A stretch of DNA of 64,000 nt from Melampsora larici-populina 98AG31 (Eukaryota > Basidiomycota > Pucciniomycetes > Pucciniales > Melampsoraceae). The stretch lies in contig NW_006768777.1 of the NCBI RefSeq assembly GCF_000204055.1, forward strand, positions 1,395,877-1,459,876, in the 5' to 3' direction. Numbering within the stretch: position 1 is the first letter of the stretch; each line of letters starts with the position of its first letter. Under the pieces are notes generated by a model. It searched no databases and was not told the DNA's origin. It saw nothing but the letters and a program-made list of their open reading frames with translations. The position numbers were made by a program, and so were the translations under genes. Below, one piece after another: positions 23,866-59,199 of this stretch.

Positions 23866-26800
23866 CAACCCCTGACGCGCAGCGCAGTTTACTGCGCGAA
23901 AATTGCGCCTGCGCTGGTGTCCGCGCACCGCACTTTTGCACATTTCCCACTGCGCTGTCACGCACCCCAGGGGCCTTTGCGTTTTTATACCACTGCGCAT
24001 TGGCGCAGTGCAGCCCGGTGCATTCTGCGCAGTGTGCGCAGTTTGCGCACTTTTCAAGGCCCGTTTTTGGTCGGAGCTTCCGCCACTGTGAGCCACCATC
24101 AAAAGTACTGAAGAGCCCCTTGCGTAACAATCTAGACTCGATTGATCTTCGATCCTCACGTCATTGGAACTTCTCGACCAACTTATCAATGGATTTCCGA
24201 ATATGGATGCCTAATGGCGCGTGGCAGGACCCACCTGAGCTGGATCTTTCAGTTTCACAGTCACCCTCATTCCTGGACTTACTTGCACTAGCCATCGGTT
24301 CGACAACTCCTGATTCTCGATCTGATCTATATGATTCATATATCTCAGACTCTAGATTATTATTCACACCGGTCGATTCATCCTATACTTCCGCTTGTCT
24401 ATCAATTATTTTGATCCCACTTCAAGTCTCGTTTACATCGATCACATTCAGAATCACGTTATACACTTTTTCTTATCATTGTCACTCCTCATACTTCTCT
24501 TACAACTCGTACAAGCTACATTTCACTATGGCGAAATCATCTTCTAAGAAATCTCAATCTAGTAGTATCAAGTCCACTCGCAAGTCATCAATGTTGTCGT
24601 CAACCACCAAGGTGAAATCCAAGCCTCATCAACCTACAACTGTGATCATTGATGACGAGGATGAAGATGATGACGCCGACAAAAACAATCCTACTTATGA
24701 GACGGAAGATGAAGATGACGAAAACAAAAACGAAATTGACAAAGAAAACCATGATAACTCGTTCAATAGCACTAAATCTCTGGTTGATGGAAAGCGCAAC
24801 AGGAAAGCTGAAGAGAAGTCTACCGCCAGTAAGAAAAAGAAATCGGTGGCACCAACAAAGAGCAAGAAAGGGGTAAATTGTTTCCATCTATCCCTTCTCA
24901 CCTTTATGTTTGATTGTTGACTTTTAATTCCTCGCACAGAATTACAAACTTCCAAAGAATGTCGACCCAGATCAAGATTCAGATATCGAGGAGATGCCTG
25001 GACCTGATTCAACTGGGTCTCCTGTCGAGGTTTATGATCATATAAGCCTCTACTTCGAGTCCGAGCTTTTTTGGCGAGAAGATAAACAGGTATGCTTTCT
25101 ATTTTTGTTTCATTAGAAACAAAACTGATTCCATTCCTACCTACCCACAGCAACCCGGCGAGAAACCGATGTACAGAAGATGCTTGTTCTGTCCCAAGTC
25201 GTACAGGATTGGCGAACGGAGCAATTGGAACCTAACAGGCCATCGCGACGGTGACGCTGGTCGGGCACAATGCGCTGGACGAGACAATGCCATTGCTGCT
25301 GGTGCTAACTTGCCTTTGCCTTGGAAGGCTCGGCAAGCTGCAAAGGTGGCTGCACAAGAAGCTGAAAAGCATAAGCACGAGAAATCCTCACTTCAAGATT
25401 TCTTAAACTTACCCAAGTTCTCAGTTGGTCTTTTGAATATGATACTCGTCCTGTGGCTCCTTCAAAACTGCATCCCGTGGCTTCGTATGGAAGACCCATA
25501 CCTTCAAGCAGCATTTGCCCTTTGCAACCCCAACGCGACTCTCTGGTCGGCATCATGGTCTGCTCGGTGAGCAATGGAATACTTTGAGGAATTCCGTGGG
25601 AACCTCGTTCAAACTCTCAAGGTTTTGTTTCTTTTCTTTTTCTTTCAAAATTTATTTAGATCCCTCTTGCTAACACACCGATCTCTTCTGCCATAGGGTC
25701 TTGACTCCAAAATTTGTGTCATACACGATGTATGGACTACAAAAGGAGGCAAGCGGGCTTTCATCGGTGTAGCCGTTTCTTACATCGATGAAAACTGGGA
25801 GTTTCACGTCACACACCTGACGTTGAAGCTCATAGCATGGAATCATTATGGATCATTGCTGGCTCGACCAGTTGGCAAGTTTCTTATTCGACACGGTCTT
25901 CATAAAAAGATAAGTCTTCTGTCTTTTTATTTCATCTCTTCTATTATTCCTTTTATGTTTTGAATTCGGTTTTGTTTCTCTCTTTTTATCCATAGAGCTG
26001 ACATGAGTTTTTCCTGATGACACATGCTTGCTCAGACAACCGACTCAGGATCCAGCAACCCAGTCTTGGCGAAGGAGCTGGAATCAATGTTCATGGACTG
26101 CGACGATCCGATATTTTGGAACTCGTCTCGCAATCAGATCCGATGTTATTGTCACAAGTTGGCATTGACAGTCAAGGCCGGACTTGAGACGATTGGACTC
26201 GGTGATCAAGGCCGAACCAAACCTACAATCCCCTCTGGCAAACGACTTAGGTTACTCCTTCCTGACGACCATATCCCTTCACCCAAAATTGTCATGGCCG
26301 ACGGTAATGTAGTTGATGAGGATGGTGAGTTAGCTGATTGCAATAGTGATCGGGAACAGGAATCAACCCTAGAAGCAGGTGAAGACGTCAAGGCAAGCAA
26401 TGCCTCAGGGGATGAAGAGCAAGCATCCGACTACAAGGAACAGAATCCTGATGCTTCTCTCTTACCTCGAGCTGTAACCAAGGTAATGTCTCCTCTTCCT
26501 TTCATGATTCTAAAACAAGTGACTGATCAATTCTCTTTAAAGGTACGACGCATCAACAAATTGATAACTTCGAGTGCACCACGCCTCAATCACTTCAAAG
26601 CTTGTGCGACTCAGCTGGGATTCTCGGGTGGTGGGCTAATTGCTGCCCATGGTCAGAGGTGGAATATATGGTTTGATGCTCAAACTCGCTTGTGCAAAGC
26701 TAAATCAGTAAGTAGTCACATATATCATTGTATTATCGTTTCTTGGTTCTTGTTTCTAATAATTTTTCTTTTGTTTTGTGTGTAGGTAATTAATCACATG

Positions 26801-28157
26801 ATCAACGAAGATTCGGAAGGTTTCTACGAAGGCATTACCATTAGTCCTGAAGAATGGAAGGCTATTGAAGCGTTGAATGATGTGTTGGGGGTAAGTGCCT
26901 TCGATTTTGATGTTTCCAATAATTACCAACTTTACTAACTTCTCCTTACAGTTTTTTCTGCGATCCACCAAGAAGATGGAAGGCGATGGGCCAACTGGTG
27001 CCTCGGTTCTTTTTCAGTACTCTGGATTAATCTCGGTCCTTGTCAATACCAAAAACGCCACACCACATCAAGGGTTATCCAAGATGATCGATGGTATGAT
27101 CAATCAGCTCCGTGGATACCAGACAGAGGCACTTTACTGTGATCCACTTGTCATGGCAACCATTCTCAATCCCCGACTTCGACTAGAGTTCATCAAGAAT
27201 AAATATCCTGATTATGCCGGACGCGCCGACGAGCTATTTCGCCAACACTTCTCGGAGTATGAGAAAACTCATGTTAATCCTGCATCACAATCGACTAGCG
27301 AGGCCGAAACTCAAGCCAATCGACCATTCGATCCATTTGACGAAACAAATGTGTTCAGCACCTCAGCTAAACATGTTCTGACCATCGACGAAGAACTTGA
27401 ACAGTACTTCTCCGGAATGCATCCATGCGAAGGCAATACTGATATATTAGTATGGTGGAGAGTAAGTCTCATTATCTTTTATTTAGCATGACCTTGGCTG
27501 ACTTCCTTATTGTTGCAGCGCAATCAAAATTGATTTCCGAAGATGGCTAAGATGGCTCGGGACTTCTTGGCTTGTGTGGGGTCTTCTTGTGCAGTTGAAA
27601 GAACCTTTTCAACTGCAGCAATTGTGTGCGCAAATCGACGAGGTGGCCTATCATCAAGATCCATTGAAAGAGCTGTTGGAATCTGTCAATGGCTCAAACA
27701 AAAGTTTGTGCCTTCAGGTGATCTTGGGAAGGCGGTTTCAGCTGTGGAACAGCTTGTTGCAGGTTTGGCAAAGAAGAAGAAAAGTGCAAAGGTGTAGTTA
27801 TTGAGATGGTTCCTTCTTGATCCTTGTTTTTCTCTCTATCTTATTTTCTCAGATTTTTTTTGTTCTTCCTTATATGTCTGTCTTTACTGCTGGCTCTGTG
27901 TGCTCTGTCTCATGTGTCTTGTGTCCCATCCTCTTTATTTACAAGCTTGTGCGAAAAAAAAAAAAAATTGTGCCGAAAAATAGCGCAGTTTTTCGCCACT
28001 GCGCTGCGCTAAACTGCGCTAATCTCAGCGCATGGCCCCCCCTCAATATTTAGCCACTGCGCTGTTTCGCAGTGCAGCGCAGTGTTAACTGGGCCGACAA
28101 ACGGCACAGCGCAATTTGTGCCAAAATTGCGCTGCACTGCACTGTGGTCAAGGGTTG
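23866..28157 (+). mobile_element. Nested hAT element with GCGCA-rich subterminal regions
   Basis: The ends are CAACCCCTGAC (left) and CAACCCTTGAC (right, minus strand), flanked by ACACCGG on both sides. Both subterminal regions of 150-250 bp (23870-24070 and 27970-28150) are packed with GCGCA/TGCGC and GCAGTGC motifs in both orientations, unlike the AT-rich surroundings. Such arrays are typical transposase-binding regions of hAT elements. The element is 4292 bp and carries one multi-exon transposase gene on the plus strand. Confidence 0.85.
24528..27797 (+). pseudogene. hAT transposase (nested element), broken by two TGA stops
   Basis: The reading frame starts at ATG 24528 with a Ser/Lys-rich and then acidic N-terminus. 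Introns follow at about 24871-24940 and 25090-25150. A BED-like finger (CLFCPKSYR, then SNWNLTGH) precedes the catalytic core: VIHDVWTTKGG with the first Asp, AQTTDSGSSN with the second, and QRWNIW. The C-terminal hAT dimerisation domain reads MAKMARDFLACVGSSCAVERTF and ends near 27797. In-frame TGA codons at 25568-25570 (after ASWSAR) and 27531-27533 (before FPKMAKMARD) interrupt an otherwise continuous protein. The exon junction near 25910-26040 could not be placed cleanly. The element is probably unable to mobilise itself unless a stop is removed by an unmodelled intron. Confidence 0.8.
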
Positions 28158-28164
28158 ACACCGG
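28158..28164. repeat. Right target-site copy (ACACCGG) of nested hAT
   Basis: Matches 23859-23865. Together the two copies date the nested element as inserted after the outer hAT. Confidence 0.8.
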
Positions 28165-28278
28165 ATATCCGACGGATCCAGTGGTGTATTTAGCTTGCAA
28201 AAAGGTGTATGTGGTTTGCATTTCACATCAAAGAAAGAAAAAAACAAAGAAGGAAGTAAAAAGTAAAAAAAAAAGAAA

Positions 28279-30782
28279 CTAGTCAATTATGACTGCAGCA
28301 GGAGCAGGGGTCTCAACACGCTCTTCCATGTACAAAGGACCAAAGACTCGGTACCAGTCTTTAACACATAAGGCTCCCTCTACATGTCGAGGTGCAAGAC
28401 TAACTCGCTGGGGTGCCAAGATTTGTTTAGCCTTGGTAAACACCCCCTCCGAAGGACAGCTAGTTGCTGGAATCGCCAAAAAACTCATGGCCATGTTGGC
28501 CAAACTGGGATAGATGTTGATGCGCTCTTTCCAAAAATCTAACACAACCTTGTCGCGCCTTTCAAGCTTTTTGCCAAGGTATTGGTGGAGTTCGGAGTCA
28601 ATTGAGTGTTCGGCAATAGAGTCTCGGTTGCCAAATATAGCATCTTCAAAGTATTGTGAAGTAGAAGTTGTCGATTTTTGTTTTCTGGTGATAGTTGCGG
28701 TGGGGGTTGGGCATTCAACCTCGTACTTCCTGGCCTCTTGTTCAAACATGAACCAAACATTTGAAGGGTAGATATTGTAGTCGGACAACATCATCACATT
28801 TTGCTAATTGGTAAAATAGAAACAACTGATCAGTATATTAGATTAGCAAGATAGGAAGTGAAATAAACAAACTCACTTCAAAATAAGCCAGCTTGTGGCG
28901 CGGATCAAGAATCGTGGCACAGATTGGTGCGGGTTTTGCAAGTACTTTCTTGAAGTAATCTTCAAGTTTCTTGATCATGAGCTTCGAAGCAGGAATAAGT
29001 TGATTATGATCGTATCGCTGAGCCACCTAAGATTGAAATCATGTCAGTCAAGAGTGACAAGAATATGTAAGATAGAAATTTTCTTACCGATTTCAGGCCT
29101 TGTATCACTACAACGTAGATCGGAACCACTTGGTGCATGGTTGGGTATTTTGATTTGCAAAGGATTTCAGTAGCCTCGCTGAGTGGTTCAAGAAATTCAC
29201 ACATCTGTTTAACATATTCCCACTCGAGAGGCAAAAGGGCGTATTTCTTGAAGTCTTGAGCACCACAAAAATCATCGCATGCCTTCTGTAGAAGAAGGAG
29301 TCTTCGGAACATATGATAAGATGAGTTCCATCTTGTTGGAACATCAGCTACAAGTCAATTGGCAGTGCTAGCATGTGACTTGGGCGTTGGCATGTCTTCA
29401 TCAATAGTTTGGTCTCGCATTAGGTAATTGACAGCAGATGAAGTGGCCGGATCGAGATCATCAGATTCATTCAAATTCTCTGGACTGGAGGCAGTGGCTG
29501 GGTTTAAAGAGTTTGCAAGTTGTCGCCTTGCTTTGACGATGGCGGCAAAGGATTGGCCACGCTGAGGGCTGGAGCGGGTACATTTGACTAGACCATGGCA
29601 TCGGTGGTAGATTGTTTTAAGATTGATTTGAGTCGAATCGGGTGGGTCGATAAGGTTATGGATATTTGAAGTGAGTTGAGCATCCTCATCTTCGTCGAGC
29701 ACTTCACCAAACACCTTGAGGCCATCTTTGGCAGCTAGGTTGATCACATGGGCCACACACCCATGAACTTGAGTGTTAAAATCGAAAGGGATATCTTCTG
29801 ACATAGAAATTACTCGACCGATTGCCGCATTGGTACTGACGTTATCAGCCGTCATGGCACACAATTTACGAGTGAGATCAAACTTCTTTAAGTAATCAAT
29901 GATGATCGCGCCTAGATTGGTTGCATCGTGTGAACCTAGACAATCAGGTTCATTTAAGAAATCCATCAAAAGTTATGAAGCAAATCGAAAAAGAAGACTG
30001 ACCTTGAATTTCGGCAATGCCAAGGGTAACATCAACAAGCTCCCAGTCCTTAGTGATGAAATGACCGGTAAGAGACATGAACGCGGCGTTGTTTGGAGAC
30101 GTCCATGCGTCTTGAGTTATCGCGATTGCTTTGCAAGGACCTAGATAGAACTTCTTCACATAATCTTCGTAGTGATAGTAGGTTTGGCGCATGTGTTGAG
30201 CGATGGCGTGTCGTTTGACTAGCATGCCGTCGACTTTTGGGTTTGCCAATTGAAGCAAGTCTCGAAATGACCGTCGTTCCATGATTGAGAACGGAAGGTC
30301 ACATTCCGCAATAAAGTGTGTGAGTGCACTCTTCAGGGTGTGAGAGTTGAGACCGTTCTGACCATAGTTGTTAAGATAAAACAATGAATTCATGTCTTTG
30401 AAAGTAGAGAAAAGATTAATAATACCAAGACTCTTACCGGGTGAATTGTCTTGATCTTCTTGAAAGATTGAGCAATATCATATTGATTCAACAGATTGCC
30501 TTTGCGAACGCCATGCTGAGTTTCGAGGTGGTTGCTCATGGATTTAGTACTCGACCTCTTATCTCGATACAACTCTTTACCACAAGCTTGTCCATTCTTC
30601 ATAATGAAGTGACACTTATTGATTTGCTTGTTTGGTACCTTCTTGAAATAGGTCCACACGTGGCTTGGTTGGCGAATGGTCGTAGTGGAAGTATCAGTAA
30701 AATCGGAATCCTGCGCTGACTCTTTATCAGTCGATACCGTTGATCCCGAGGCGGAAACACTGTTGTTGGCTTCAGACATCAT
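28279..30782 (-). pseudogene. hAT transposase (outer element), one TGA stop
   Basis: Read on the minus strand from 30782, the protein starts MMSEANNSVSASG. It has a BED finger (HVWTYFKKVP, Cys pair, then SNHLETQHG) and catalytic-core segments AITQDAWTSPNNA and AMTADNVSTNAAIG with HGCVAHVINLAAKDGL. Then come DVPTRWNSSYHMF, ICATILDPRHKLAYFE and the dimerisation domain (SELHQYLG, then MAMSFLAIPATSCPSEGVF), with the stop at 28279. Several short introns separate these blocks. A TGA at 29355-29357 falls inside the exon just before DVPTRWNS. Everything else looks intact, so this is a recently inactivated copy, unless that stop lies in an unrecognised intron. Confidence 0.8.
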
Positions 30783-31105
30783 GTGAGATCGATGTTGAGT
30801 TGATTGAACGGTGTCGATAAGGTTTTAATCTGATTCTGGGTATTGAGCGGTGATCATCAACTTTCGATGATATGCATTGACTCTCGAGGTTGGTTGAGGA
30901 ATCTTGCGAGGAGATACAAAGGAAAAAGAACATTCTGGAACGTTTGAGCCAAACTTCCAGAATTTTCAGAAATTTACCGGATGTCCGGCTATCCGCCGGA
31001 TCGGATGTCGGGCGCTAGGATTTTTTAAAAAAATCCGACCGGTCATTCCTCCGAGGTCCGGATTACACTTTTTATCCGTCGGATCGGGGGTCGGGCAAGC
31101 CATAA

Positions 31106-31627
31106 GGGCCCGGATCGTGACCGGATCACGGGTTGAGCTGCATAACCAACGGAGATTGGCTACATCCCATTCCAATGTCGCAAAAAATGGTATTGGTGAA
31201 TAATCATGATTGAAGCCTAGTCTAGCCTAGTGAAGAGTGTAGCTCTCGTGAGTCGTGACATGAGAGACATGACTTATGATGAACCCGAGATTTACAGATA
31301 TCACAGAGGTTTCTGTTGTGGACTGCTCTCACGCCGCGGCACGACCGCGGTGCAGTCCCAATTGGACACCACAAGAGCCGGCTGCTCGGCATCAGCTCCG
31401 GTTCCACATCTTTCTCTTGTGAAAATCGAAGCTATAGACTTACAGCTGAGCGTGTCTTATATAGGTACACAATTATATATCTTATTCCTGTGGAACTCGT
31501 AGTCGTAGACTTGCAGCTGAGCGTGTCTCTTGTGGTTTCTTCAATCCCGGTAATTCCCTGTCTCTTTCTTCTGGCTTGTCCAGAATCTAAGACTTGACCT
31601 TCAGTAACACTTGTCCAGTACATCCTA
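31106..31627. other. Intergenic stretch with a short direct repeat
   Basis: No gene. A 20-bp motif with core AGACTTrCAGCTGAGCGTGTC occurs twice, near 31435-31456 and 31507-31528, about 70 bp apart. The segment lies directly upstream of the small cysteine-rich ORF and could be part of its promoter. Confidence 0.35.
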
Positions 31628-31810
31628 ATGAAGAACGTTGTGACTTTGATCTTAGTCATCAGCCTCACTCCCGTGTTTTCAAGACAGCCAATATGCAGGG
31701 CTTGGGAATATGGAAATTGCGCGAAGCCAGTTGATCCAAAAGCTCCAGCACATCGACCATGCGCCTGTTACAACTCTTGCAGGAGGACAAAATGTGTAAA
31801 GGTTCTCTGA
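31628..31810 (+). CDS. Small secreted cysteine-rich protein (candidate effector-like)
   Basis: A single exon encodes 60 aa. The first 18 residues (MKNVVTLILVISLTPVFS) have the charge and hydrophobic core of a signal peptide. The mature 42 residues hold six cysteines (positions 23, 31, 45, 47, 51 and 56) and are basic at the end (CRRTKCVKVL). Six Cys in about 40 residues could form three disulphides. Small secreted Cys-rich proteins next to transposons are common effector candidates in plant-pathogenic fungi. No homology is claimed and no role is proven. The ORF is short, so chance cannot be excluded, but signal peptide plus Cys spacing is unlikely by chance. Confidence 0.5.
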   Translation: MKNVVTLILVISLTPVFSRQPICRAWEYGNCAKPVDPKAPAHRPCACYNSCRRTKCVKVL

Positions 31811-33690: not shown

Positions 33691-33696
33691 AACTGA

Positions 33697-34083
33697 GCTG
33701 CTCAGTTATTCCTCAGGGGCATCCCTGAGATCAGGAGGATCCGGAGGATTTCACTGCTCATTGGATGAGGGGCTGCTCAGTTATTCCGGAGGGGCATCCC
33801 TGAGATCAGGAGGATCCGGATGATTTCACTGCTCATTGGATGAGGGGCTGCTCAGTTATTCCTCAGGGGCATCCCTGAGATCAGGAGGATCCGGAGGATT
33901 TAACTGCTCATTGGATGAGGGGCTGCTCAGTTATTCCTCAGGGGCATCCCTGAGATCAGGAGGATCCGGAGGATTTCACTGCTCATTGGATGAGGGGCTG
34001 CTCAGTTATTCCTCAGGGGCATCCCTGAGATCAGGAGGATCCGGAGGATTTCACTGCTCATTGGATGAGGGCCTGCTCAGCTA
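33697..34083. repeat. Tandem array, five copies of a 75-bp unit
   Basis: The segment ATCCCTGAGA recurs at 33721, 33796, 33871, 33946 and 34021, an exact 75-bp period, with one to few substitutions per copy. A decayed sixth unit follows at 34081. Each unit contains the hairpin CTCAGGGGCATCCCTGAG (7-bp stem, imperfect in the second copy) and a palindromic TCCGGA. Because 75 is a multiple of three, one frame is open through the array, but this looks incidental. The surrounding kilobase (33400-34500) is also rich in CTCAG/CTGAG words. Confidence 0.9.
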
Positions 34084-37883: not shown

Positions 37884-37898
37884 TCCTCCCCTTCTTCC
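37884..37898 (-). promoter_or_regulatory. Polypurine tract of the gag-only element
   Basis: TCCTCCCCTTCTTCC on the plus strand, i.e. an uninterrupted purine run on the element strand, directly abuts the 3' LTR. This is where plus-strand synthesis is primed in LTR elements. Confidence 0.75.
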
Positions 37899-38175: not shown

Positions 38176-40037
38176 CTATACCAATTTTAATCTTACTTTC
38201 CTAGACCATTTCTCAACTTCTTTAGACACTTCAGGCGAAATTGAAAATAACTCTTTAATGAAAAACTGATAAAATTTGTGCTTAACTCTGTTCACTACTT
38301 TTGATAACATTGATTTAGAATTCTCTTTGAAAACAGATGTATTTGATTTTTTTATGAATTTATGTGTATTTGAATTGATAGAAAATAAATTGTTTGAATG
38401 TTCATTTATCTCTTGCTTCTTCTTGATACCATATCCTTTCTCAATTCGCATAAAATCTTCTCCAATAGCATTATCATTATCTTCTAACACTTCATCCATG
38501 TCCACAACATCAATCACTTCTATAACATCATCAAATGCTACTTGCTTCTTTATTTTAAGATCTTCTTGAATTTGATTTTTAACATCCTCTTTCTTAATTT
38601 GAGACTCATTATTTTGTGCTAAATCTTCTTCCTCAATTTTTACTTCTTTATTGACAGAATACATTTGAAAATCATTAGTAATAATTGGTGTTAAATTTGG
38701 TAATGAAACTACTGGCTGAATTAAATTAAAATCTTCTGGTTCCATTAAAAAACTCGAATTTTCATTATGATCAAAAGTACTCTCAGTATCAGAATAGTAA
38801 TCCATTTGATTGTAATTTGTGTCAGAGTTGATATATTGATCATTTAAATCAGCTTCTCGTACTTGTAGTTCATTAAATTCAATTGGTTCTTGATATTGAT
38901 TATAGATATAGTTCTGTTCTTGATTATGATCATGATATTGATGAATATTTGAATCATTTGGCGCGAGTTGATTGGTCTGATAATGTTGATAAGGAGCAGG
39001 TTGTTGTTCAATATAAGTTTGGAAATGATTAGGAACATAAATTTGATATGTAAAAGAATCAGGATGTGGAATTAAGCTAGAGTTCTGAATGATATTTGTT
39101 TGAAGATTATTATGATCACTACTCAAATAATCAATCTGATGAGTAGCTTTTGCTTGTTCTCCAGTAATCTTAGCAATTTTCTTATTTATATTGTTTTGAA
39201 TAACTTCATTCTTAACTCCAGGAAGGTCATCTATGATCCTAATTTTGCTTTCTTCAACATCTTCAAAATCCAACAGTACTTCTCCTTCCAAAACATATTC
39301 TACAGCCTTTTTCAATTTGTTTAAGCTAGGTAACTTATAACTACCACCATCAACTTGTTGAATAAACTTTTTCTTAATTAATCTCTTTTTAATTTCCTTT
39401 TGTAACTCGTCTGAAAAAGCCTCATAAAAACATCTCACAACTTCCTCTTCTGAATTGATATAATCATGCTTGGTAAGATAATTGTAAATCTTGTCAAAAT
39501 TTATTTTAAAAGATTCAAATTCAGCTTCATTTGTAATTCCACCACGCCTAGAAGACCTTTCTGATAAAACTCTGATATGATCAATAGAGTACTTTAATTC
39601 TTTTGATGTAAAATGATATCTAGCAATGAGTTGTTTCTTTAATTTCGTCCAACTCCATTTGCCACTACCCCAGCCATCCATTTCTCTAATTTCCTCTTTC
39701 AAACTTTCTTCTTCAACAAATCTAGTAATTTGCATAACCATATCAAGTTGAGAAGCACCATCAGCTTCTGCTTGACTCTGATAATTCGTGAGAAACCTAT
39801 TAATACTTTCTCCTTCTCTGAATCTAATTGAAGCATCTGAATTATTGATTTTTCTAGGTCTTTCTTCATCTGAACTACTATCACTATCACTTTCAATGTA
39901 CATCCTACTAATTTTCTTCTTTTTATTCTTTTCTTCTCTTTAAGTCTTGATTTTTCAATTAAATCCATCATTTCTTTTTCTGTTTGATTGAATAAATTTT
40001 GTTGTTGTTCATATAATTTCTGCCATGTAGAAGCCAT
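38176..40037 (-). pseudogene. Gag polyprotein, frameshifted
   Basis: The main frame (39903-38176) encodes a gag capsid-like domain with blocks such as NRFLTNYQSQAEADGASQLD and GWGSGKWSWTKLKKQLIARY, which align with the gag at 62724-64000 (NYHSQAEANGASELD and GWGTGEWSWKKVKEQLIARY). The N-terminal part (MASTWQKLYEQQQNLFNQ, from 40037) lies in another frame, so a frameshift sits near 39930-39950. It lacks about 100 N-terminal residues present in the copy at 62724. After the capsid the sequence is Gln/Asn/Tyr-rich and then acidic. No CCHC knuckle or protease follows before the stop at 38176. Confidence 0.8.
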
Positions 40038-44002: not shown

Positions 44003-44922
44003 TTAGGCTAGCACTATGTTGCTCATTCTGTATCCAGTGATCAACATGGTATTATGATATAGATTTTGCTGAATTGTCATCCAATTAATTGGCCCTAACC
44101 TTGAAGCTTGCCGTCTTAGGAAATATTTGAGCCAGCATAGCCTCCAGAAGGCTTTGCAAATCAATCTGAGATGAGCCCTTCTTACAATTGCGGCGCCCGC
44201 CGCTCAATTCGGCTAGTATAATTAAAAAGTCAAAAATATATAAATCAATGATAGATAAGGATCAATAATTTCGTGTAGATTTCAAAGCTTCAAATGAAAT
44301 GAAGAGAATGAAATTATTAATGTGAGAAAGTTCTTTGATTTAAAGTATTGTAACCAAAGTGTTTTGAATTAGTGATTAATTTTTAAAGGAGAAACTCGAA
44401 ATTGTTGATGACGGAATCTTGTTTTAATGAATGAAGTAATCTTTGAAATGAATGTTGATCTAATTCTTGAATTGATTTTCGGGTAAAACCTCCAATAAAC
44501 TGAAAAGGATTGGTTTTGTTGTTAAAAAGGATAGTATTCCTGATTTTTTGAAATTTTAAGTCAATTGTTGTTAATTACTATTCTGATTGTTTATAATGGA
44601 ATTAAGTTATAAGTTGATGTAGTATTGATCATTAGGTTAATCTCCTAAATTTCGGATATTGAATATATCTAAATTATTTAACAATGATAATGATTATTTT
44701 GATGAATAGTATTGATTGTGAATTTTCGGATTTTTCAGTGGATTTATATAATTTAATTATCTGATTTGTTTTAATGTTATATTATAAATTTGAATCTGAT
44801 ATTGAATAATTTAATTGGATCAAGTTGTTTTGTTAATTTGAGAATGAACTGTTGAATTTTATTATAATATAAAGTAATTGAAGTAATTTAAATAAATTTG
44901 ACCAGTAGCAAAGTTAAGTAAA

Positions 44923-44940
44923 GCCCGGGCAGAGTCACCA
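44923..44940 (-). promoter_or_regulatory. Primer-binding site of the gag-only element
   Basis: On the minus strand TGGTGACTCTGCCCGGGC starts three bases after the LTR edge. TGG is the complement of a tRNA CCA end. I cannot assign the tRNA with confidence. Confidence 0.7.
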
Positions 44941-44943
44941 ATA

Positions 44944-46571: not shown

Positions 46572-46575
46572 CCGT

Positions 46576-48640
46576 CTCAACCACCATCGCCACTGTCTCA
46601 ACCACCACCAACACCGTCTCAACCACCACCACCACCATCTCAATTGTCATCATCACATAACATTACTGAGGAACTATTGAATTGAAAGTCCCCTTCATTG
46701 ACTCAAGACTCCACTTTGGCCGGTGTCACACCATCAGCTCCTGCCCCCTCCAAAATCATCTACTATCCATTCTTATCACCAGGACCCAATGCAAAGCCAA
46801 GATATACTCACCACCATTTAAGGGTGGAAGTTTCGTTGTTACTGTATTACGGGATATGTAGTAGATTATGGGTTTAGATACTGGGAATTTATCTGGCATT
46901 CAAGACTCCCACCCTTACTTCTTCTTTTCTTCATAGCTTTCTCTTATCTCACTATTTCTATTGTTTCTTTTGATATTACTGATTTCTGATATCTTCAAGT
47001 GCTGGATTAGTAATTGATACCAACACCATGTCTGTATCCCTGTAGGAAGTCGACGTGCACACACGGAGAGTTTCCAAAAGAACATGGAAGAACTTTTCTG
47101 AAGTTCAGACTGGTGGATCACCTTGATGCACACACCCTTTGTTGGAACTCAATTACCCAAGTTTCAACAACCCACTTAATAAAGGCAAAGCCTCAAGACC
47201 TCTTTTGAGGCTCTTGCAAGTTTCTATCAAAAGTCTTTTGTGTGTGCACGTCGAGGTGTCACATGAATACAGACATGGTGCAAGGGGTTTAGATAAACCC
47301 AGCTCTCTTGAGAGATTGCGCCAGGAATATGATCCAGTGAAGGTGGAGATCTACAGTCCACCTTACACACCACCATGATCTATCTTGGAAAACTTGCTTC
47401 TGTTTAAGAAAGAGATTGCTCTACCCAAAGTCAGAAACTGAGATACCCAATGCAATCATTGCTGCCAATTTGGACAAACAACAATAATGTACTGCCCAAA
47501 AAAAGAGTTACCTGGCCAAGCTGAACTATACTACGACTGGCGGGTTGTTCATTTGGACAAAAGGCTTAGGCCTAACAATAACCATAGTGTCTTGGCTCTT
47601 TACCCAAGTTTAGCAGAAGCCAAACATCTGTAAGTCCTTTTGATTCAATCATTCACTACAACAAGTCCTTGAAATTGACCTATATGGTATAAGTAGAGAC
47701 CATGCGCGCATGCGCGCAACAGGGAAATTGTGTCCAATTACAGGCTTTAGTTACTACTATTACAAAATACCACTTTACACTCCCCTGAGGAAAGCATCCT
47801 CACTACCTGCTTGACTAATATTGACTTAGCCTGAGGTCGTGGTTTTAATCTATTTCCCTTTTGTTTTCAATACCATACACCACTTTTGACTCAGGAAATC
47901 AGTTGATGTCCTCATTATGTCACTGAAACAATGAATTAAAACCCAAGGCATACATTTTTTATTAACAGTATAAAAGAGGTACAAAACATTTCAAGGAGAC
48001 ATTCTACTCTATCTTTGCTCTCCTTTAACCAAGCGGATTAACCCTGGAAAACATTGGTATCCTGCTTCTTGATCCACAAAGAAACAAACCACTTAACAAA
48101 ATATGTCCTCATCCACCCTCTTTAGAATCAAATGTTTCAATCCTTGAAAAGTGTGTGGCGCATGTGAAGCTGAACGCACAAAGCATACAAACGTTTCTAA
48201 CCCACACACTGACAGTCTACAAAAAAAGGCTTTGTCAAAATTACTTACACCTTCAGTATAAATTAGTATTAGACACTTATTTTCTGGTTATACCACCTCC
48301 ACCACAATCCTCTTTGTTATCCACCTTGTATACCCCATTCAAGTTGCAGGGCATGTAATGTTTTTGGGTCTTTCAATCTAATGTGGAGATAGTGGCTCTC
48401 TGATTTCCTAACGCTTCAATATGCAGCTTGACTATACCACTCAAGTCATGTTCCTGAGTTCTGGAGAAACATCTGTTAGAATACAACCTATGTAGTCAAA
48501 CCCGCCAAACTACTTACAACTTATTTAAGATCACATACTGAATTCAAAACTTAAATCTCAAACTTAAACTTAAACTCAAACCTAACCAATCCCTGTATCA
48601 CATTTAAATAGTCCCATTCATCCACGATCACCACTTTCTC
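46576..48640. other. Gene-free stretch right of the LTR element
   Basis: Starts with the other half of the CAACCACC microsatellite (to about 46650). The part 47045-47310 is a second copy of the dispersed repeat at 35160-35450. An alternating GCGCATGCGCGC tract lies at about 47703-47715. Remaining frames are short and unrecognised. Confidence 0.35.
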
Positions 48641-48643
48641 CTC

Positions 48644-49080
48644 ATCAGTTCACTGAGGAACAAAGTGGCGTGTAAGTGGATTCATACTGATTTCTTCTTC
48701 AAATCCGAATGAACAGTTGTTGATCTATTTTTATATCTATCTCTCTCTTTTCTCTTCAGACCTTTGTTGTTTTCTTTCACCTCTGTTAGGTGTGATTATT
48801 TTTCGTCTTTGGTGTTCAGAACCGTTAAGACTAACTCCCGATTACTGGCATTCTAAGGTTAGAACATCATTATATGAAATAATATCTTATCAGTTCACTG
48901 AGGAACAAAGTGGCGTACCTTTGTTGTTTTCTTTCACCTCTGTTAGGTGTGATTATTTTTCGTCTTCGGTGTTCAGAACCGTTAAGACTAACGCCCGATT
49001 ACTGGCATTCTAAGGTGTGATTATTTTTCGTCTTCGGTGTTCAGAACCGTTAAGACTAACGCCCGATTACTGGCATTCTA
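48644..49080 (+). repeat. Tandem duplicated block, one copy lacking a GT-AG intron
   Basis: Segment A (core TCAGTTCACTGAGGAACAAA, ending GTGGCGT) occurs at 48644-48671 and 48889-48916. Segment B (from ACCTTTGTTG to GGCATTCTAAGG) occurs at 48760-48859 and 48917-49015, with a partial third copy at 49013-49080. In the first unit A and B are separated by 88 bp (48672-48759) that begins GTAAGT and ends TTCTCTTCAG. In the second unit A and B are fused exactly at those borders. Confidence 0.85.
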
Positions 49081-49398
49081 AGAATCACCATTTGGTGACT
49101 CGAGTTTCTTTAGTTCTTCGCAACATCATTTTATAAGGATAGCACAAATGTGGTAAATCTCATAAGTTCATAGGGGTGGGGATCTTGGTTGTTAGATGGG
49201 CAATAAGTTCAGATGATGCTCTGTTCATCATGGTGTGGGGGTTTTTGCTCACAAGCAGAACAGCTTTGAGCTGGGGTTAGGCTAGTATTTCTCAGCTCTG
49301 AGCAAGAACTTTCCTTTTTTTGTGTTTCATGGAGAATTGTGTTACAAACAACTCATATTTTTGACATAAACTACACAATAGATGTGACCTCAATGTCG

Positions 49399-50385
49399 AG
49401 GTCGCGTCCAACAGGCACTGTGATATGGGTGCATGTTGATGATGGGGTGGTGACTGGGAGCAGTGTGGAGTTATTGAGAGAGGTGGCAAAGGTGTTAGTT
49501 GTGGAGTTGAAAATCAGATGGTCAGAGACTTTAGATTGTATTGTGGGGATGGATGTGAAGAGATTGGAAGACAGGAGTTTTGGACTTTCACAAGCAGGTC
49601 TCACAAACAAAATTGTACGGGATTTCTCGGAAACACCGGGGAAAGCAACTACACCTTCATATGCTGCAAATTTTCCAGCTTCACCAACCAACAAAGAAGA
49701 AGAAATTGACAAGACCAGATATCTATCAGTGATAGGCTGATTAAATTACTTAGCCGTAGCGACTAGACCCAATCTCACGTATGCAACAAATTTTCTTGCA
49801 CAATTCTCAGCAAGACCCACCAATCAACATTGGGCAGCAGTTCAACACATGATGAGATCTCTCAAGACAACCGGGGTAGTGAAATTAAGTTTGAAACCGT
49901 TGAAAGGTGAAGTGAAGACAGGTCTACACACTTATGTAGATGCGAACTGGGGAGGTGAATACTCAAGATCAGTGCATGGTTACACCACTTTCTTTTTGGG
50001 TTGCCCACTAGCGTGGACATCAAAAAGGAAAGGGTGTGTAGCAACATCTACTTGCCACCCTGAGTATATGGTGTTGGGAACGGCAGCTCAGGAGGCAGTA
50101 TGGTTGAGGAACTTAGTTGGTGATGTTATTGGAGCAATGGGTCCGGTGAAGCGTTTTTGTGATAATACTTGATCAGCCATCCACGTGTCGAAGGACAATT
50201 CATCAAATAAGAGAACAAGGAACACAGATTGAGAATTTTACTATGTGAATGAGCAACTTTTCAAAGGAACAGTTACGTTACACTGGGTTGAAATTGAATC
50301 AAAAAATCAAAAGGCAGATATATTCACTGAGGCGCTGGGCCCATATTTGTTCAAATCTGGGAAGTGGAATTTAGGGTTGACATGA
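49399..50385 (+). pseudogene. Ty1/copia polyprotein fragment (reverse transcriptase end and RNase H)
   Basis: The fragment opens in the reverse transcriptase at IWVHVDDGVVTGSS and runs through SQAGLTNKIVRDF, LNYLAVATRPNLTYATNFLA, RPTNQHWAAVQHMMRSLKTT, YVDANWGGEYSRSVHGYTTF and LAWTSKRKGCVATSTCHPEY, the classical copia RNase H motifs. It ends IESKNQKADIFTEALGPYLF and KWNLGLT at 50385. TGA stops interrupt the single frame at 49738-49740, 50170-50172 and 50230-50232. The 5' part (gag, protease, integrase) is missing. A purine-rich GAAGTGGAATTTAGGG at the end may be the polypurine tract. Confidence 0.85.
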
Positions 50386-50943
50386 TTTTTTTCTTTCTCA
50401 ATTTCCTGTTTTTTTTTTCAATTCTCTTCTTTTCAATGATGTTGAACTCAATTTTTTGATGTGTGCGAGTTTCTTACTTTATTTTTTTTCTTTCTTCTTT
50501 CTTTATATCTTTCAAGTTTTTCTGAAGACGAGTGCTGTGGCTTGTTGTGGGGGGGTGTTGTAAAGCTATGGGGTTACACGGCTGCACCACAGAGTGTCAT
50601 GTGCGTGATATGTTGTACAGCTTCTTGTAGTCAAGTCTCTCCTCCTTGGCGGAAGCCTTCCACATCACTTACCATTGTGGATAGGGCTGATCCCCAAGCC
50701 CCGGAAAATCGGGGATCTCCACGGTCTCCCACAACGGAGTCGGGGGTGTTCTGACCCCCAGATGATACCAAGCCCCCGGGGGATGGTTGGTCCCGGTTGT
50801 TGTTCCAGTAGGCAGAAAAAAACCAGTTCTCCGTGGGGAATTGTGAATTTTTGGGGGCAAGATCAAGGTATGCATGGCGACAAAGGGGCTGAAGAAATTC
50901 ATACTTATTACTAGTATGTACAAGTGATTAAACCACAATCTGA
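50386..50943. other. Flank of copia fragment and probable 3' end of a hAT element
   Basis: T/C-rich to 50520, then GC-rich with several CCCCC/GGGGG runs (50690-50790), which resemble hAT terminal regions. No gene. Confidence 0.3.
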
Positions 50944-51108
50944 TCAATCAATTTGAATAGCAGTGTTCTTACAACGGTACAAGTGTCCAAAGACAAAATA
51001 CCAGTCTTTCAGACACACAAGAGCCTTGACTGTTTGGCAGGAGAGACAGCTTCTTGAGGGGCATAAGACAGTCCTTGCTTTACTGAACACTTGTTCAGAA
51101 GGAGTACT

Positions 51109-51770
51109 CAATTGAACGTTGCAGAGCAACGTCATGCTGACACTGCAAATATAATGTGTTTTTCCAAGGTGAAAAATGATTGCATTTGTTTTACAAAATG
51201 ATTAAAAATGCATTAAATCTGCATTAAATCTGCATTAAATCTGCATTCTTCTGCATTAATTCTGCATTATTAATCATTTTGTGCATTAAACTCAATCATT
51301 TTTTGACTTGGAAAAATACATTATTTTTGCAGTGTGAAGAGAGCAGGACATGTATTATCAACTGTGCATTTTAGAAGAATGGTTTCTTTCTAACATCATG
51401 ACGTGATCAAATGTGTTTGATTCATTTGTATATTAGAACAGTGTTGTACACTTATTATTGTTCTTTTCTTTCATCGAACTCATTACTAGAATTCCTTACA
51501 ATCTCCATTTCTTAAATTGTGGATTTCTTTTCAATCACACATCGGTCTTGTATAAGACTGATATCTGATCTTGATTTTTCTCAGGTGTTAGTGATTGTTG
51601 TTTCTGAATAGTTCTCTCTTCTGCAAACCATCAAACTCATTACTAGAATTCCTTACAATCTCCTTGTCTTAGATTGTGGATTTCTTTTTGATCACACATC
51701 AGTCTTGTATAAGACTGATATCTGATCTACGTTCTTCTCAGACAAAAGAACCGTCCACGCCTGAATCTCT
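51109..51770. mobile_element. 662-bp insertion in the hAT dimerisation domain, probably LTR-derived
   Basis: TACT flanks the insert at 51105-51108 and 51771-51774. The interior has a duplicated block of about 110 bp (51477-51584 and 51629-51741) beginning AACTCATTACTAGAATTCC and ending in TCTCAG. It also carries a MITE at 51141-51334. There is no ORF. A 4-bp duplication and lack of inverted ends favour a solo LTR, but the TG/CA termini expected of an LTR are not seen. Confidence 0.5.
51141..51334. mobile_element. CACTA-type MITE, 194 bp
   Basis: Ends are CACTGCAAATATAATG and (minus strand) CACTGCAAAAATAATG, inverted repeats of about 40 bp with a few mismatches, flanked by TGA on both sides. 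CACTG ends with a 3-bp duplication indicate the CACTA/EnSpm type. The centre has five tandem TGCATT-based repeats (about 51210-51270). Confidence 0.82.
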
Positions 51771-52877
51771 TACTTGTGGCTGGCATTGCAAGATAGCACC
51801 TTGCCATACGAGCTAAGAGTGGAAAGGCTGGGGCTTGGCCTTGCCAATGGATGAGGACCTCAGCATCATAGTCCTTGGTGATCTCTCCAAGATAGCGGTT
51901 CAGCTCGCTAGTAGTGGACCATGAGTGCCCCTGTCTACATTACCAAAGATCTCTTCATGTAGGCAAGATTGTTTTTTTGGTCGATTGGTTAGGTTGGGAG
52001 TGTTGGACTCGTTCCCCGCAGATGATCCAAACTTTTGACTTTCATGTATAAAGATTTCCTTGAGCAATGAGGGTGTGGTACCGTAATTAGACAGAAAATT
52101 GGCTGTAGCCTCTTTCTGTTTATCAAAGTTGTATTGAAAAGCCTCAGCAATGTACTGAGATTGTCAAAGGCTGAATTTGATTACTAACCTCAAAGTAGTT
52201 CATGTTGATGCGTGGATCAAGGATAGTGGCACAAATTGCCGCTGTCTTTTTAATAAGCAATTTAAAATATTTGTCCAGATTGCTAATCATATCTTGGGCA
52301 GCAGGAATGAGCTGTTTGTGGTGGTACATTTGTTGAACCTATTAGATGAACAGTGAATACAAAATTAGAATGATGATATAGGATCAAGATTTGATGAAAA
52401 CTTACCCGCTTCAATCCTTTCATTACACTGATGTATGTTGGTATCATGCTGTGCATTGTTGGAAATCTGGACTTACACATCGTGTCTGTGGCATCACAAA
52501 GTGGCTTGAGGCAGTTACACATTTGCTGGGGTTGATCCCATTCAATCTTAGACATAGCAAACCGTTTACAATCGGGTCTCTGACAGAACTTCTCAACAGC
52601 ATCTTGGAGACTGAGGACACAAAGGAACATCATGAATGTTGAATTCCAGAGAGTTTTGACATCTTGTACCAAATTTACAGTGGTCTGGTTAGATTTTGAT
52701 TGAACAGATTCAGATCGAGGTTGAGGTTGTGGCAGATCTTGAATGTTGGCGGTGTCTTCAAGGATTTCTTGAAGTGAAGAATCTTGAAGGCTAGTGTCAA
52801 CATTGGAATTGAGAATGCCACCTGCTCTTTTGACTGAGCAAATAGATTTAACTATGTCTGCAAAAGCCTCTGATCGT

Positions 52878-54502
52878 TGTAGAACTTATAACCCAACAAG
52901 GGTTATACAGAGCTGGAAGAGGATAAGCTACTAATAAAATGACTAGTAGAAGTTGTCTGAGACTGCTCTTCTAAAACAACACAATCAGGAAAAGACACTG
53001 TTGTATTGAGTACAGATAAGGCACCAGAGAAATATATCTTCACACATATTTTAACTTCAAAAGCACAATTTTTATTACTATCAACACTGCTATAGTGTTA
53101 TTCCCAAATGATAACTGAAGAAATAAGCAATATCTTATTGATATTATTCCCAATGAGTTTTTTTGACTATAAAACTAAAGTAAATTTCTCTTTATAGCTG
53201 TAATAAAGGGTGTATTTAAGTGACCAGGTACTATTAAAATAAGTTTATAATGATAAACAAAATAATCACTCCGTAAATGATAAAGAAAAAAGGGGAACAA
53301 CAGTCCCAGAATCCTCTCAAAGTTTATATAAAAATGTACTCCAACTTTTACAATGGTCAACAGCCTCAAAACCAATCAAATCCGCCCAGAAATCCCCAAA
53401 AACCCTATGATGACGCAATGTAACAATTTTTTTACCAATAAATGATGTAATTTTCACAGCCAAAAGTGATCAATGACGCAATAATATGATGTACAGCACT
53501 TCTTATGATGAATACAGGTGATTTTTTCCTTGTAAACTAGCTGAAAGCCAAATTTTGAGATTACGAATTTTTTCAGATGTGCTCCAATTTTTGATTACTA
53601 AAGTGCATCTTGTAGCCCTCGTGTTACTGATCATTTATGACACCCATATGACCTATTTCTGATGAGTGATGAGTAAGATATTGAGTTGTGAAGTTAAGGT
53701 TTTGAGCATTCCATGTTGACTTGTGACTGTAAATTCGAGATTCACACCAATTTCTTATTTGCCTTATAACTTTTTACATACACCTCCACAACTATTGATT
53801 TAAAGCTTGTACATTATGTAATCCCCTCTTCTGCGTTGAATGAGCTATCTAGCAACCTAATCTGACGTCATTTGACATATGTAATAAGGTGAAAACCTTC
53901 ATTTTTGACGAAATTCACCCATTTTCTTCACTTTTCACAGGTGCTACTCTCTTTTTCTTGCTCATGTAATATGAAATCATCCTCTATAACCTTGAAAATC
54001 CCGGAACATCCTCTTGGCAACCTTAAATTTCACTATTACCACCATTACATATGCAAACTACTTGTATACCTCTTGTTTACCAACTTTGAAAAAGTACCTT
54101 TTCTCTAATAACTCCTGTTTCCTCTTATCAACCTTCAGGATTAAAATTGTTATGGTATAATATAATGTTGTTCTTTCATATCCTCACCTCATAATACCCA
54201 TAACTTTATTATTACTACCCTAAAAACCATTTTTCAACCTGTATACCTATATTTTTGACTTTTTCTTATGTTTTTCTTTCTTTCTTTTTGTAATAACTTT
54301 GTGAATGAACTCTAATGATCTTAATAAGTAATGTGAAATAAAATGATGTAATGTTAACTCAATGACCAATACATAAGCCTATAAGAGCTTCAATTGATCC
54401 AAAAACCTCCATTTCACATTTTCTGACCTGCTAAACTTTTCTAATAAACTGGTAAACTACTAAATATGAGTTTTTGATTGATCCCTTAAATTGATCACCA
54501 CT
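52878..54502 (-). repeat. Solo LTR 3
   Basis: About 1625 bp, starting TGTAGAACTTATAACCC and ending GATCACCACT where the other LTRs end in CA. It is closely similar to LTR 2 along its whole length. The left neighbour is hAT coding sequence, the right neighbour a different hAT's coding sequence. Neither a primer site, nor a polypurine tract, nor matching flanking bases are present (ATCGT on the left, TAATA on the right). The hairpin is at 52888-52906. Confidence 0.8.
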
Positions 54503-57500
54503 TAATAATGGCTGTTCCACCTTGTTTTACAGGGCCGTTTAAGCATGCGGCCCTTGTATCCCAAGCGAGTGGAACATGCCTCGAAGTCACTGCGACGTGA
54601 GGCACTACTCGCGATTTGACCCGAGAGGGTATCAACCTGTATGAAAAAAGATAACAATAAGTATCAGTTTGACATCAAAATTGAAGGCAGACAAGAAGAT
54701 GATGATGAGTAATCACCTTGGCAAGGGCCAAAGCTACCACATCTTCTGGTAGGTTGCCTTCAAGGCTATCATCAATAGCCTTGTCCTCATCATCAACACC
54801 ATCAGGCTGGTCAGGAAGACCAGCCTCGTCTTCCTCCGAGTCCGACTTGGGGTCATCAATGTGAATGTTGCCCTTGCCATCGTTCACCTCGAGCGCGGGA
54901 ATTGGGAGAGCCACTCCACTTGGAGTAGTTGATTTCAATTTACTAACCTTCACACTGAGTGCTCTCAAACCATGGCCAACTGTCAAGTTGAGCTTATGTG
55001 CATAGCATTTGATATGATGTCTGGATTGATCCCAGTGGACTGATTTGTCGGCTTTTGAAAACATTGACTTAACCTTGGTAGCCATCGGACCGTTGTTGCC
55101 TCCGCTGTCAGTGGTCTGAGCGAGCATGTGAGTAAATTTTGAAAGATTGAATTAGCAAAACATCAAGGATCCCACTATTTAGCGCCCTCGGAACAGTATC
55201 CGGCGCCCCCTCTCGGGTCGGACACCAGGCTACAAACATTTCAGGCGCCCCTTCTTAAAAAAAGGGGCTCCACATTGGGGCTCCCACATTATTTACCTCA
55301 ACTCAAAACTTGCCTTCTTCTTTGTTGATTGTACAACAGTTTTTTTGTACATATACACAATTTATCTGAAGTAAGCAAAGTAAAAAATGAGCAATTGTCC
55401 CATTTCTTTGATGTTTGCAAGCGGAGCTCACTGAGCACCTAAGACCATACTTGGCATGAACATATCAGAGATTGACAGCATACATAGAAGTTTTATACAA
55501 GGATATCGGCCATTCATACAACATACAGTAGGGGTTACTCCAACAAGAACAACAAGAAAGAGACAAAAAAACAAGTGAGCTAGGTATTGTCAAGTCAAAC
55601 AGAGCACTTGAGATAAGGATGCGAGAGGCGGGAGGATTAGAATGGGGTTTACTCTGGAGGAAGCATGTTAGTATTTGGGTCATAGAAGAGCGTCTAGATT
55701 ATACATAAAGGTGTGAGTAGATTTGAGACAAAGCGTAAGGATCAACGTGAGGATCAATGTCGAGTCAATGTGGGAATTGATTTCGGAATCAATCTCGGAA
55801 TCAATCTTGGAATCGATGCATGACCTGGTTACACGCGTGACTGAACCAAGAGAGTGTTTGAGAGATAGGCCCTGGAGTCAAAGAAGGTGACTAGATTGAC
55901 CAAGGGTGGGTATGAGGATCACAGAATGGCTTGTTGAAAAGCATTAGGGGATAGACAAAATCAAAAGATAAAAATACCAAGAGTTGGTGAAGATGGATGA
56001 TAAATCGGATTGCAAAAGGTACCAAAGTGAAGTGGAAGGTTGAGAATCAAGTCGATGTTGTGTTGGTTGAAGTCTCGAACACAAAAGCCAAGGATTCCTT
56101 GGATAAGGAAAGGTTTTTACTGTTGTTAAGCAAAGGAAAGGTTGATAGTGATAGCTGAGTTTGTGTTGTTTGGGTAGGTTGACCGTTGGTTTGGGTGAGT
56201 TTAGGCAGAGAATTGGACAAGGGAAGAAAGTTCGAGAGAGTCCACATATTGTAAGTGGATGCCTTACCTCGCTTGAGGGCAGGGCCGTCCGTGTATGCAA
56301 GGGGCCGGTCCGGGCACTTAATAAATTAGGTGCCCTTTTGTCTAATTTGATGATGTTTGTTGCACCATCAAGGATGAGAGGGCATAAAATAGGTCAATTA
56401 AGAATTCAAAGGAGGCTCATTTGCAATATTGTGCCCTGTTTTGGAGCCCTCAAGGAGCCCTCGAGGTCCGAGTGTGCGAATTATAGGCTGAAAATCGTCG
56501 GCTGGCAACGGGCCACGCGGGTTTTTGGAGAAACCCGAGGGGCGCCGGATATCACCCAGGGGGGCGCTAAATAGTGGGATCCAACATCAATAGAGACATC
56601 AAAAAGAATAAGAAATTGTAAGAGATTGCTTATCTTTTTGTGAAGCCCGTGTTGGATTGAAAACCGTCCAATGGGTCTTGCAAGAAGGGCTCCAAAGTGT
56701 TGCCAACCGACCATCTTCAGTGTAAGGTGTGTCAATTAGTATTCCCAATTACTATCATTGTAATTGGCTGATGCCCCCACAAAGGCATAACGGTTCCCCT
56801 TAGTAGTCCAGACATCATGTATCAAGCAAAATTTACCTTTGTTTTGCTTGATACACAGAAAGAAATTCATATTATATACTGACAAAGTTTTGAAAATCAA
56901 AAACTCACATACCTTAAGAGTATTCTGACATTATTGTGCAAGCCAGCAAACAGATGAAGAGATTGCTGAGCTGCCCACGTTTTTGACCTGACTACTGCAC
57001 CTCAATTGACGCAGTTGAAAGAGGTACATAGGAGGGGATCTTCAAATCAATACCAAGGTGAGGCATGCCAAACCACCCACATGAGCAAGATCATGTTCAA
57101 AAGGTCGGCTGAAAATGCTGGTCCAGATAAGTATGAGTCCAGTTTTCCCGACTTTGCTAGTTTCTTCTCAGCCTGTTCCTTTTCAGTGTATGACGGTGGA
57201 AGAATGACACCTGCAGCTATTGCTTTGTGACGGTTCACACATTGAGGTCAACCATCCCCACCATCTTGATGGCTCCATAGGCCCCAATATGATCTATCAC
57301 CACCAGTATACAACTTAGGACACCAGCGACATTTGTATTTTTGATCCTACAGAAGAATGACTATGGTCAGTAATGCAATAGACATACAATATGGTATATA
57401 ACTCAGTCTCAAGGCAGGAAAAAGTAAGGAAGGTACATACTTTAGGTGGGTAAAAGTACTTAAGAAGGTCCTCAACACAATTTGATTGAACCGTGTTATA

Positions 57501-58150
57501 TCCAGGTTCACTGTTCTCCCCAACAAATTCCACATCAGAGTCTTGATTGAGGTCCACGCCTTTTGGCACCTCAAAGGCCTAACATATTTGTTATTGAAAG
57601 AACATCATCAGTTTAACATCTCAATGTGGTATATGTGAGTTTAGATGTTAAACTTACATCCAACCTGTCCGATCTAGCTTCCGTTGATGATCAAGGTGTG
57701 CCACTTGATGAGGCTGCAGTTACACTTCCAGACAGTGATCTGGCTCGTTTACTAATTGAAGAACAAGACTAGCAAAGTAAACAAAAACATATGAATTGGT
57801 GAGTTTGTGTCAACTTTGTTATCAATTTCTGTGCAGATAAATGAACTCACCTTTCCTTGCGTGGTTTTCTTGGCCTTTGGTTGACCTGATGCTGAGGTTG
57901 TAGTCTTCTTATTCTTGTTGATGGGAGGTCAAGGTGACGCGGAACAATTAGGAAGAGGGCCTGGTGTATCTTCTGATGATCCATCCTCAGAGTCATCCTC
58001 AGGAACTGCAAGAGCTGTTCGGGAGTCTTTTGGAGGTATGATGAAACCTGGATTGGTTCTACATGAGCTAGGTGGACGGAGTTGTCTAGTAGAGAGTTGA
58101 CTGGGAACTTTGAGCGAGCTTTGGTTTGAACTGGTTTGGGAGGGAGCCAT
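54503..58150 (-). pseudogene. hAT transposase N-terminal and core part, broken by stops, insertion and LTR
   Basis: It belongs with the nested hAT at 23866-28157. From 58150 on the minus strand: MAPSQTSSNQ Ser-rich N-terminus, VDLNQDSDVEFVGENSEP, finger KYKCRWCPKLYTGGDRSYW, KAIAAGVILPPSYTEKEQ with LLNMILLMWVVW, IHDVWTTKGNRYAF, LARPIGRFSIQHGLHKK, MLAQTTDSGGNNGPM, CYAHKLNLTVGHGL, an acidic segment, and finally RRSDFEACSTRLGYKGRMLK with TRWNSHY next to the solo LTR. TGA stops are at 57929-57931, 57248-57250, 57047-57049 and 57002-57004, and TAA at 56736-56738. The region 55167-56582 is an inserted element lying in an intron. The C-terminal half is missing. Confidence 0.8.
55167..56582. mobile_element. 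Non-autonomous hAT element, 1416 bp, with 8-bp target duplication
   Basis: Both ends read GGATCCCACTATTTAGCGCC inward, 20 identical bases, with imperfect similarity continuing to about 50 bp (ATCCGGCGCCCC in both). AACATCAA flanks the element at 55159-55166 and 56583-56590, a perfect 8-bp duplication as made by hAT transposases. No transposase is encoded; internal frames are short and unrecognised. It interrupts the intron of another hAT's transposase gene. Confidence 0.93.
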
Positions 58151-59190: not shown

Positions 59191-59199
59191 AAAATCATA

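Follow-up and report, generated by a model that had tools for sequence, protein, structure and literature searches.

C-to-T changes in Melampsora larici-populina transposons concentrate at TpCpG and favor one strand of the CpG pair

Four broken transposons in a 64,000-nucleotide stretch of Melampsora larici-populina 98AG31 (contig NW_006768777.1, positions 1,395,877 to 1,459,876; the whole stretch is called the window here) are interrupted by stop codons that are nearly all TGA, which raises the question of what kind of mutation broke them. An original prediction, made from the letters of the window, attributed these stops to C-to-T change at TpCpG, by a process that resembles repeat-induced point mutation (RIP) or is linked to methylation. 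Fungi that lack RID may possess a process resembling RIP or may show passive CpG decay alone, and closely related pairs of copies can reveal both the target of such mutation and its strength. Comparing transposon copies, we found that the excess of C-to-T change is confined to CpG, that the C following a T is favored, and that this choice is made for each strand of the CpG pair. We consider it likely that transposon copies of M. larici-populina undergo C-to-T hypermutation at TpCpG, in which CpG methylation is followed by a later step that prefers T.

Copies were drawn from the 98.3-Mb assembly (243 contigs) of M. larici-populina 98AG31, and one host protein encoded in the window matches MELLADRAFT_85293 of this isolate at 100% identity across 92% of the query. 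Loci L001-L008 were dropped as parts of later loci, and L009 and L039 as the window itself; matches of transposon 3 and of the Copia region supplied five and then four compared loci, a minority of those matches. Changes were assigned by trio parsimony, in which a change belongs to a copy if it differs from both a close and a more distant copy, these two agree, and the neighboring bases on either side are identical in all three. This yielded 59 trios with 1349 changes at 44736 sites; the trio counts, like the stop counts given below, omit eight overlapping partner loci. C-to-T change reached 133/761 at TCG, 30/440 at ACG, 38/599 at CCG, and 31/599 at GCG, and 0.8-2.5% in the twelve non-CpG contexts. 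Pooled, other CpG sites changed at 99/1638, giving a ratio of TCG to other CpG of 2.9 (bootstrap over copies 2.3-3.8), and non-CpG sites at 205/16648, so that rates outside CpG are not equal to that at TCG, as the original prediction had entailed. Outside CpG, a preceding T made no difference (TpC against other contexts 1.04, 0.77-1.30). The opposite change, T-to-C at TTG (84/2373), is most simply explained as parallel hits read backwards.

These contexts bear directly on classical RID-type RIP at CpA. The RIP of Neurospora and other Ascomycota (PMC4352252) shares with our case the breaking of repeats by C-to-T change, and it would account for stop codons in repeats, but here the target is CpG and not CpA (0.8-1.3% in NCA contexts against 5-17% in NCG contexts of the trios), and both RID and DIM-2 are reported absent (PMC12210899, PMC4352252). 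For the copies compared, classical RIP is refuted.

The youngest changes showed the same target. On recent polarized branches, defined by a sister at least 97.4% identical, C-to-T change occurred at 39/443 TCG, 12/947 other CpG, and 6/9152 non-CpG sites, placing TCG about 7-fold over other CpG and about 134-fold over non-CpG. These counts omit the window branch, and for one low-identity stretch of L017, the events were dropped while the opportunities were kept in the denominator. An unpolarized comparison of ten recent pairs, leaving out pair L031/L033 and three older pairs and setting aside 12 ambiguous differences, found differences at 92/740 TCG/TTG sites, 33/1295 other CpG sites, and 25/9157 sites of other C/G transitions. 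TCG/TTG sites made up 92 of the 179 unambiguous differences (19 of 27 in pair L017/L018), and by the base 5′ of CpG, the counts were 8/413 for A, 11/406 for C, 14/476 for G, and 92/740 for T. Trio, recent-pair, and recent-branch rates thus all support the C-to-T change at TpCpG that had been predicted. Non-coding sequence shows the same TCG pattern, as the LTR-like (long terminal repeat) element beside the Copia piece differs from its 98% copy at five TCG/TTG sites, one other CpG, and two transversions.

Ultraviolet (UV) mutagenesis of methylated TpCpG by sunlight in airborne spores would have this very target, since UV-linked deamination occurs above all at TpCpG (PMC6648339), but it also predicts raised TCH and raised CCG. 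TCH changed at 0/3148 against 6/6004 for VCH, CCG (11/406) stood with GCG (14/476) and ACG (8/413), and CC/TT tandem differences were absent from the ten recent pairs and numbered 2 across all 16, making UV a highly improbable cause.

A test within CpG dyads helps to place the T preference either in methylation or in a later step. We took CpG pairs in which C follows T on one strand only and scored which C had changed. It was the C after T in 61 of 68 such dyads (p=7e-12), and the T side was in the majority in all 14 pairs of copies that had such dyads, among 16 pairs compared. The cytosine opposite the T-side C was not raised (7/483, against 26/896 in dyads without T, omitting four dyads where each copy had lost a different strand), which argues that the T effect is a property of the strand and not of the dyad. 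The base at -2 of TCG also mattered (T 40/200, A 29/219, C 15/170, G 7/148; p=1e-4), the base 3′ of TCG had no effect (p=0.21), and the two transposase strands were hit about alike (sense 40/299, antisense 47/413). Within literature seen in part and searched for this point only indirectly, we found no earlier statement of a strand choice within dyads.

Passive deamination of 5-methylcytosine (5mC) at CpG alone, with no special process at TCG, has been proposed for Austropuccinia psidii and would fit the excess of other CpG over non-CpG on recent branches, about 19-fold (12/947 against 6/9152). It gives neither the roughly 7-fold effect of a 5′ T nor the strand choice, however, and as a sole cause it is disfavored and very unlikely. 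The human 5mC signature is not known to show a T preference of this kind, and passive deamination would be expected to come without a strong 5′-base or strand preference.

In the two-step process that we favor, CpG cytosines in repeats would be methylated by DNMT1/Masc2-like and DNMT5 enzymes, producing the general CpG effect, and the later step, either deamination of T-5mC-G or inefficient repair of the T:G mismatch that it leaves, would carry the T preference. Maintenance methylation by DNMT1-RFD and DNMT5 is reported to act on hemimethylated CpG (PMC13297926), from which it follows that both cytosines should be methylated; if CpG methylation is symmetric in M. larici-populina, the T preference would lie in deamination or repair, after methylation. 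Alternatively, the methyltransferase itself could set the preference by methylating TCG on one strand, with context-free deamination afterward. Such one-strand methylation would also yield a per-strand effect, and an enzyme footprint might explain why A/T at -2 matters, but the basidiomycete enzymes reported in PMC13297926 maintain CpG methylation from hemimethylated sites and should be symmetric, and we regard this alternative as unlikely. Returning to the later step, we tentatively suggest, as one possibility among several for rusts, that it is a strand-selective step on T-5mC-G after symmetric methylation, through a dedicated deaminase or a failure of T:G repair, that prefers a 5′ T (and A/T at -2). 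If true, this would be a genome-defense chemistry distinct from both RIP and passive decay.

Turning to the stops themselves, reading the sequence confirmed all eleven at the predicted positions (Table 1), ten TGA and one TAA, as well as the T before eight of the ten TGA, the exceptions being the stop at 25568, preceded by G, and that at 49738, preceded by C. Eight of ten is more than expected from the frequency of T before codons in the same frames (0.313; binomial p=0.002) and from the share of CGA codons that come after T (152/372, 0.41; p=0.019). The other compared copies, with the window excluded, carry 50 in-frame stops, comprising 32 TGA (21 of them T-TGA), 10 TAA, and 8 TAG; some query frames in this count may be antisense or non-transposase, and any such frames would weaken the signal. 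Once the window is counted in, 22 of 34 TGA come after T, compared with 152 of the 372 CGA codons that remain (Fisher p=0.010), and Arg stands opposite 18 of these 22 T-TGA in the frame that matches best. Chance or codon usage could mimic the pattern insofar as CGA codons tend to follow T, as these 152 codons do, but the stops exceed that share in both tests, and the per-site rates, which are independent of codon usage and include the non-coding LTR, refute the explanation. As a practical caution, a T-TGA stop in such a transposon is more plausibly a product of hypermutation than a recoded codon.

Comparison with relatives divided the stops into two groups. At six of the eight T-TGA sites, at least one relative has TCGA, with other relatives often differing in codon; a 91% relative of transposon 3 has TCGA at all four of its T-TGA sites, and the TGA at 25568 corresponds to GCGA in the two nearest relatives. 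The predicted origin of the stops from CGA codons thus holds for seven of the ten TGA (TCGA for six and GCGA for one, in at least one relative), and the TpCpG inference is right for the TGA stops of transposons 1-3, one of which is in GCG and not TCG context. The remaining three TGA, all in the Copia fragment, could not be traced to CGA, and relatives carry other codons there: the two T-TGA stops align with AGG in two of two relatives, or with a gap, and at 49738, a TGA after C, the relatives read TGT and TGC, in a comparison that rests on two relatives about 73% alike. As examples of TpCpG mutation, the Copia stops are not supported. The TAA at 56736 corresponds to CAA in both relatives compared. 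Under the proposed mechanism, an in-frame TCGA hit on the coding strand would become a TGA stop, and a hit on the opposite strand would leave a missense codon. At the palindromic site at 29355, the copies show TCGA, TTGA, and TCAA, three states that hits on one or the other strand would produce.

Whether the process is aimed at repeats at all has to be weighed against a germ-line TCG bias acting genome-wide. A 7-kb host stretch of the window matches only itself in the assembly and is single copy, so that no gene pair was comparable, which leaves room for a genome-wide bias. However, two host genes have TCG/TTG ratios of 0.68 and 0.66, whereas transposon 3 and the Copia region have 0.21-0.22, and the first (0.60) and second (0.47) hAT elements fall in between. 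Of 30 lineage-specific residues in one of the host genes, none can be explained by TCG and two can by other CpG. Ratios and residues agree with a sparing of genes but are at most suggestive, with selection and composition confounding both, and we think a genome-wide bias improbable.

Several observations weigh against hypermutation at TpCpG as we propose it. The rates were measured in repeats, the 7-kb host stretch being single copy, and the three Copia TGA do not fit an origin from CGA. A normalized TCG index is positive in 5 of 13 stretches; the other 8, young copies and the LTR among them, score zero or below. The ratios of CpG to other differences vary little among nine pairs (p=0.025; pair L075/L076, with 1 difference, was excluded), and this mild variation does not point to a pulse in particular. 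The 4 differences of pair L060/L066 all lie outside CpG. Finally, the trinucleotide reported as enriched in methylation in stem rust is CCG, not TCG (PMC8444563); the contexts of methylation and of mutation may not coincide, or methylation may have been called with a bias. Across the whole window, TCG is not depleted (Markov ratio 0.97), and the classical RIP composite index is negative in all 13 stretches, host and transposon, including copies with a high TCG index. L060, L063, L064, L065, and L066, on five contigs, form a hAT-related group of 99.7-100% identity, which is a set of recent copies as yet unhit.

TpCpG hypermutation in M. larici-populina transposons belongs to a kind already known in fungi, to which the effect size in recent pairs and the dyad result are additions. 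M. larici-populina is likely to be one of the two Pucciniales treated by Horns et al. 2012. RIP-like hypermutation at TpCpG was reported earlier for two Pucciniales (PMC8063080) and is described as conserved in Pucciniomycotina (PMC5381629; PMC12730594). In Microbotryum (Horns et al. 2017, PMC5381629), transposons undergo the same C-to-T change at TpCpG on both strands, and Microbotryum papers apply a TCG index; compared with that system, our analysis concerns another species and adds rates resolved by the 5′ base, a strand-by-strand test of dyads, and the effect of the -2 base. The original label of RIP-like or methylation-linked mutation stands in that the hypermutation is of the known Pucciniomycotina kind, but RIP in the strict sense, repeat-triggered and premeiotic, goes beyond the evidence. 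For the same isolate, Amselem et al. 2015 (PMC4352252) report a Masc2-like DNMT1 without RID or DIM-2, and a C-to-T signature that is likewise CpG-only; there it was very weak, found in 10% of copies and, as far as we know, not broken down by 5′ base, whereas here it is strong in recent pairs. A 2025 survey (PMC12210899) reports DNMT1 and DNMT5 in Pucciniomycotina and, by the composite index, no RIP in rusts. The A. psidii papers propose 5mC deamination behind CpG depletion (PMC8063080, PMC12774611), and CpG loss in rust transposons, with a proposed link to methylation, is common to both species; that explanation is passive, whereas the T preference and strand choice in M. larici-populina need a further step.

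Searches for candidate enzymes gave faint signals, on which nothing stated above depends. A profile search for methyltransferases returned one DNA_methylase exon, weak and just above the cut-off, and a PF12047 search had no match but was uninformative, as its controls gave no match either. Tet_JBP had two weak sub-cut-off matches (G000:C4:2506454-2506693 and G000:C6:742570-742803), and TET/JBP genes on transposons have been reported in Pucciniomycotina (PMC12730594).

The elements of the window are listed in Table 1. The original prediction counted three hAT elements among the four transposons; the hAT dimerization domain bears this out for transposons 1 and 2, but transposon 3 as a hAT element has no Pfam confirmation. 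The Copia-like fragment matches RVT_2 at 20.6 bits, under the curated cut-off of 31.6, and genome relatives of the Copia pol region reach at most 77% among the 50 matches listed. The insertion nested in transposon 3 is missing from the related copy on C8 and is probably a non-autonomous element with terminal inverted repeats (TIR).

Table 1. Transposons, interrupting stops, and other elements of the window, with positions counted from its first letter
Feature	Position	Strand	Remarks
hAT-type transposon 1, broken	24528..27797	+	Dimer_Tnp_hAT 3e-8 in 27534-27794; relatives 83%, 81%
Interrupting stops of transposon 1	25568 (TGA after G), 27531 (TGA after T)	+	both at CpG sites of relatives
hAT-type transposon 2, broken	28279..30782	-	Dimer_Tnp_hAT 6e-18; relatives 93%, 92%, 82%, 78%
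Interrupting stop of transposon 2	29355 (T-TGA)	-	copies have TCGA, TTGA, TCAA at the site
LTR-like repeat, 523 bp, non-coding, beside the Copia piece	48600..49122	+	copies 98-80%
Copia-like reverse-transcriptase fragment	49339..50300 (3′ limit approximate)	+	TGA at 49738, 50170, 50230
Transposon 3, broken	54400..58300	-	T-TGA at 57929, 57248, 57047, 57002; TAA at 56736
Insertion nested in transposon 3	55163..56604 (~1.44 kb)	.	terminal inverted repeats ~55167-55218 / 56533-56582, ~54 columns, 81%
Recombinase-like frame named in the original prediction	59245..59739	+	164-residue frame

A minus-strand open frame of 575 residues (38176-39903) lies in an AT-rich stretch and, like the recombinase-like frame, had no Pfam match at E 0.001. 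From 42 matches spanning the recombinase-like frame and a 508-bp repeat at 58700-59207, one locus was compared. The window itself apart, one of the 42 overlaps the frame, at 71% over 586 bases, starting at residue 82 of 164 and so falling short of box I, where the original prediction had taken a CAA (Gln) in place of Arg for the same change on the other strand, and the 508-bp repeat takes 36 of the 42, many of them 83-95% identical.

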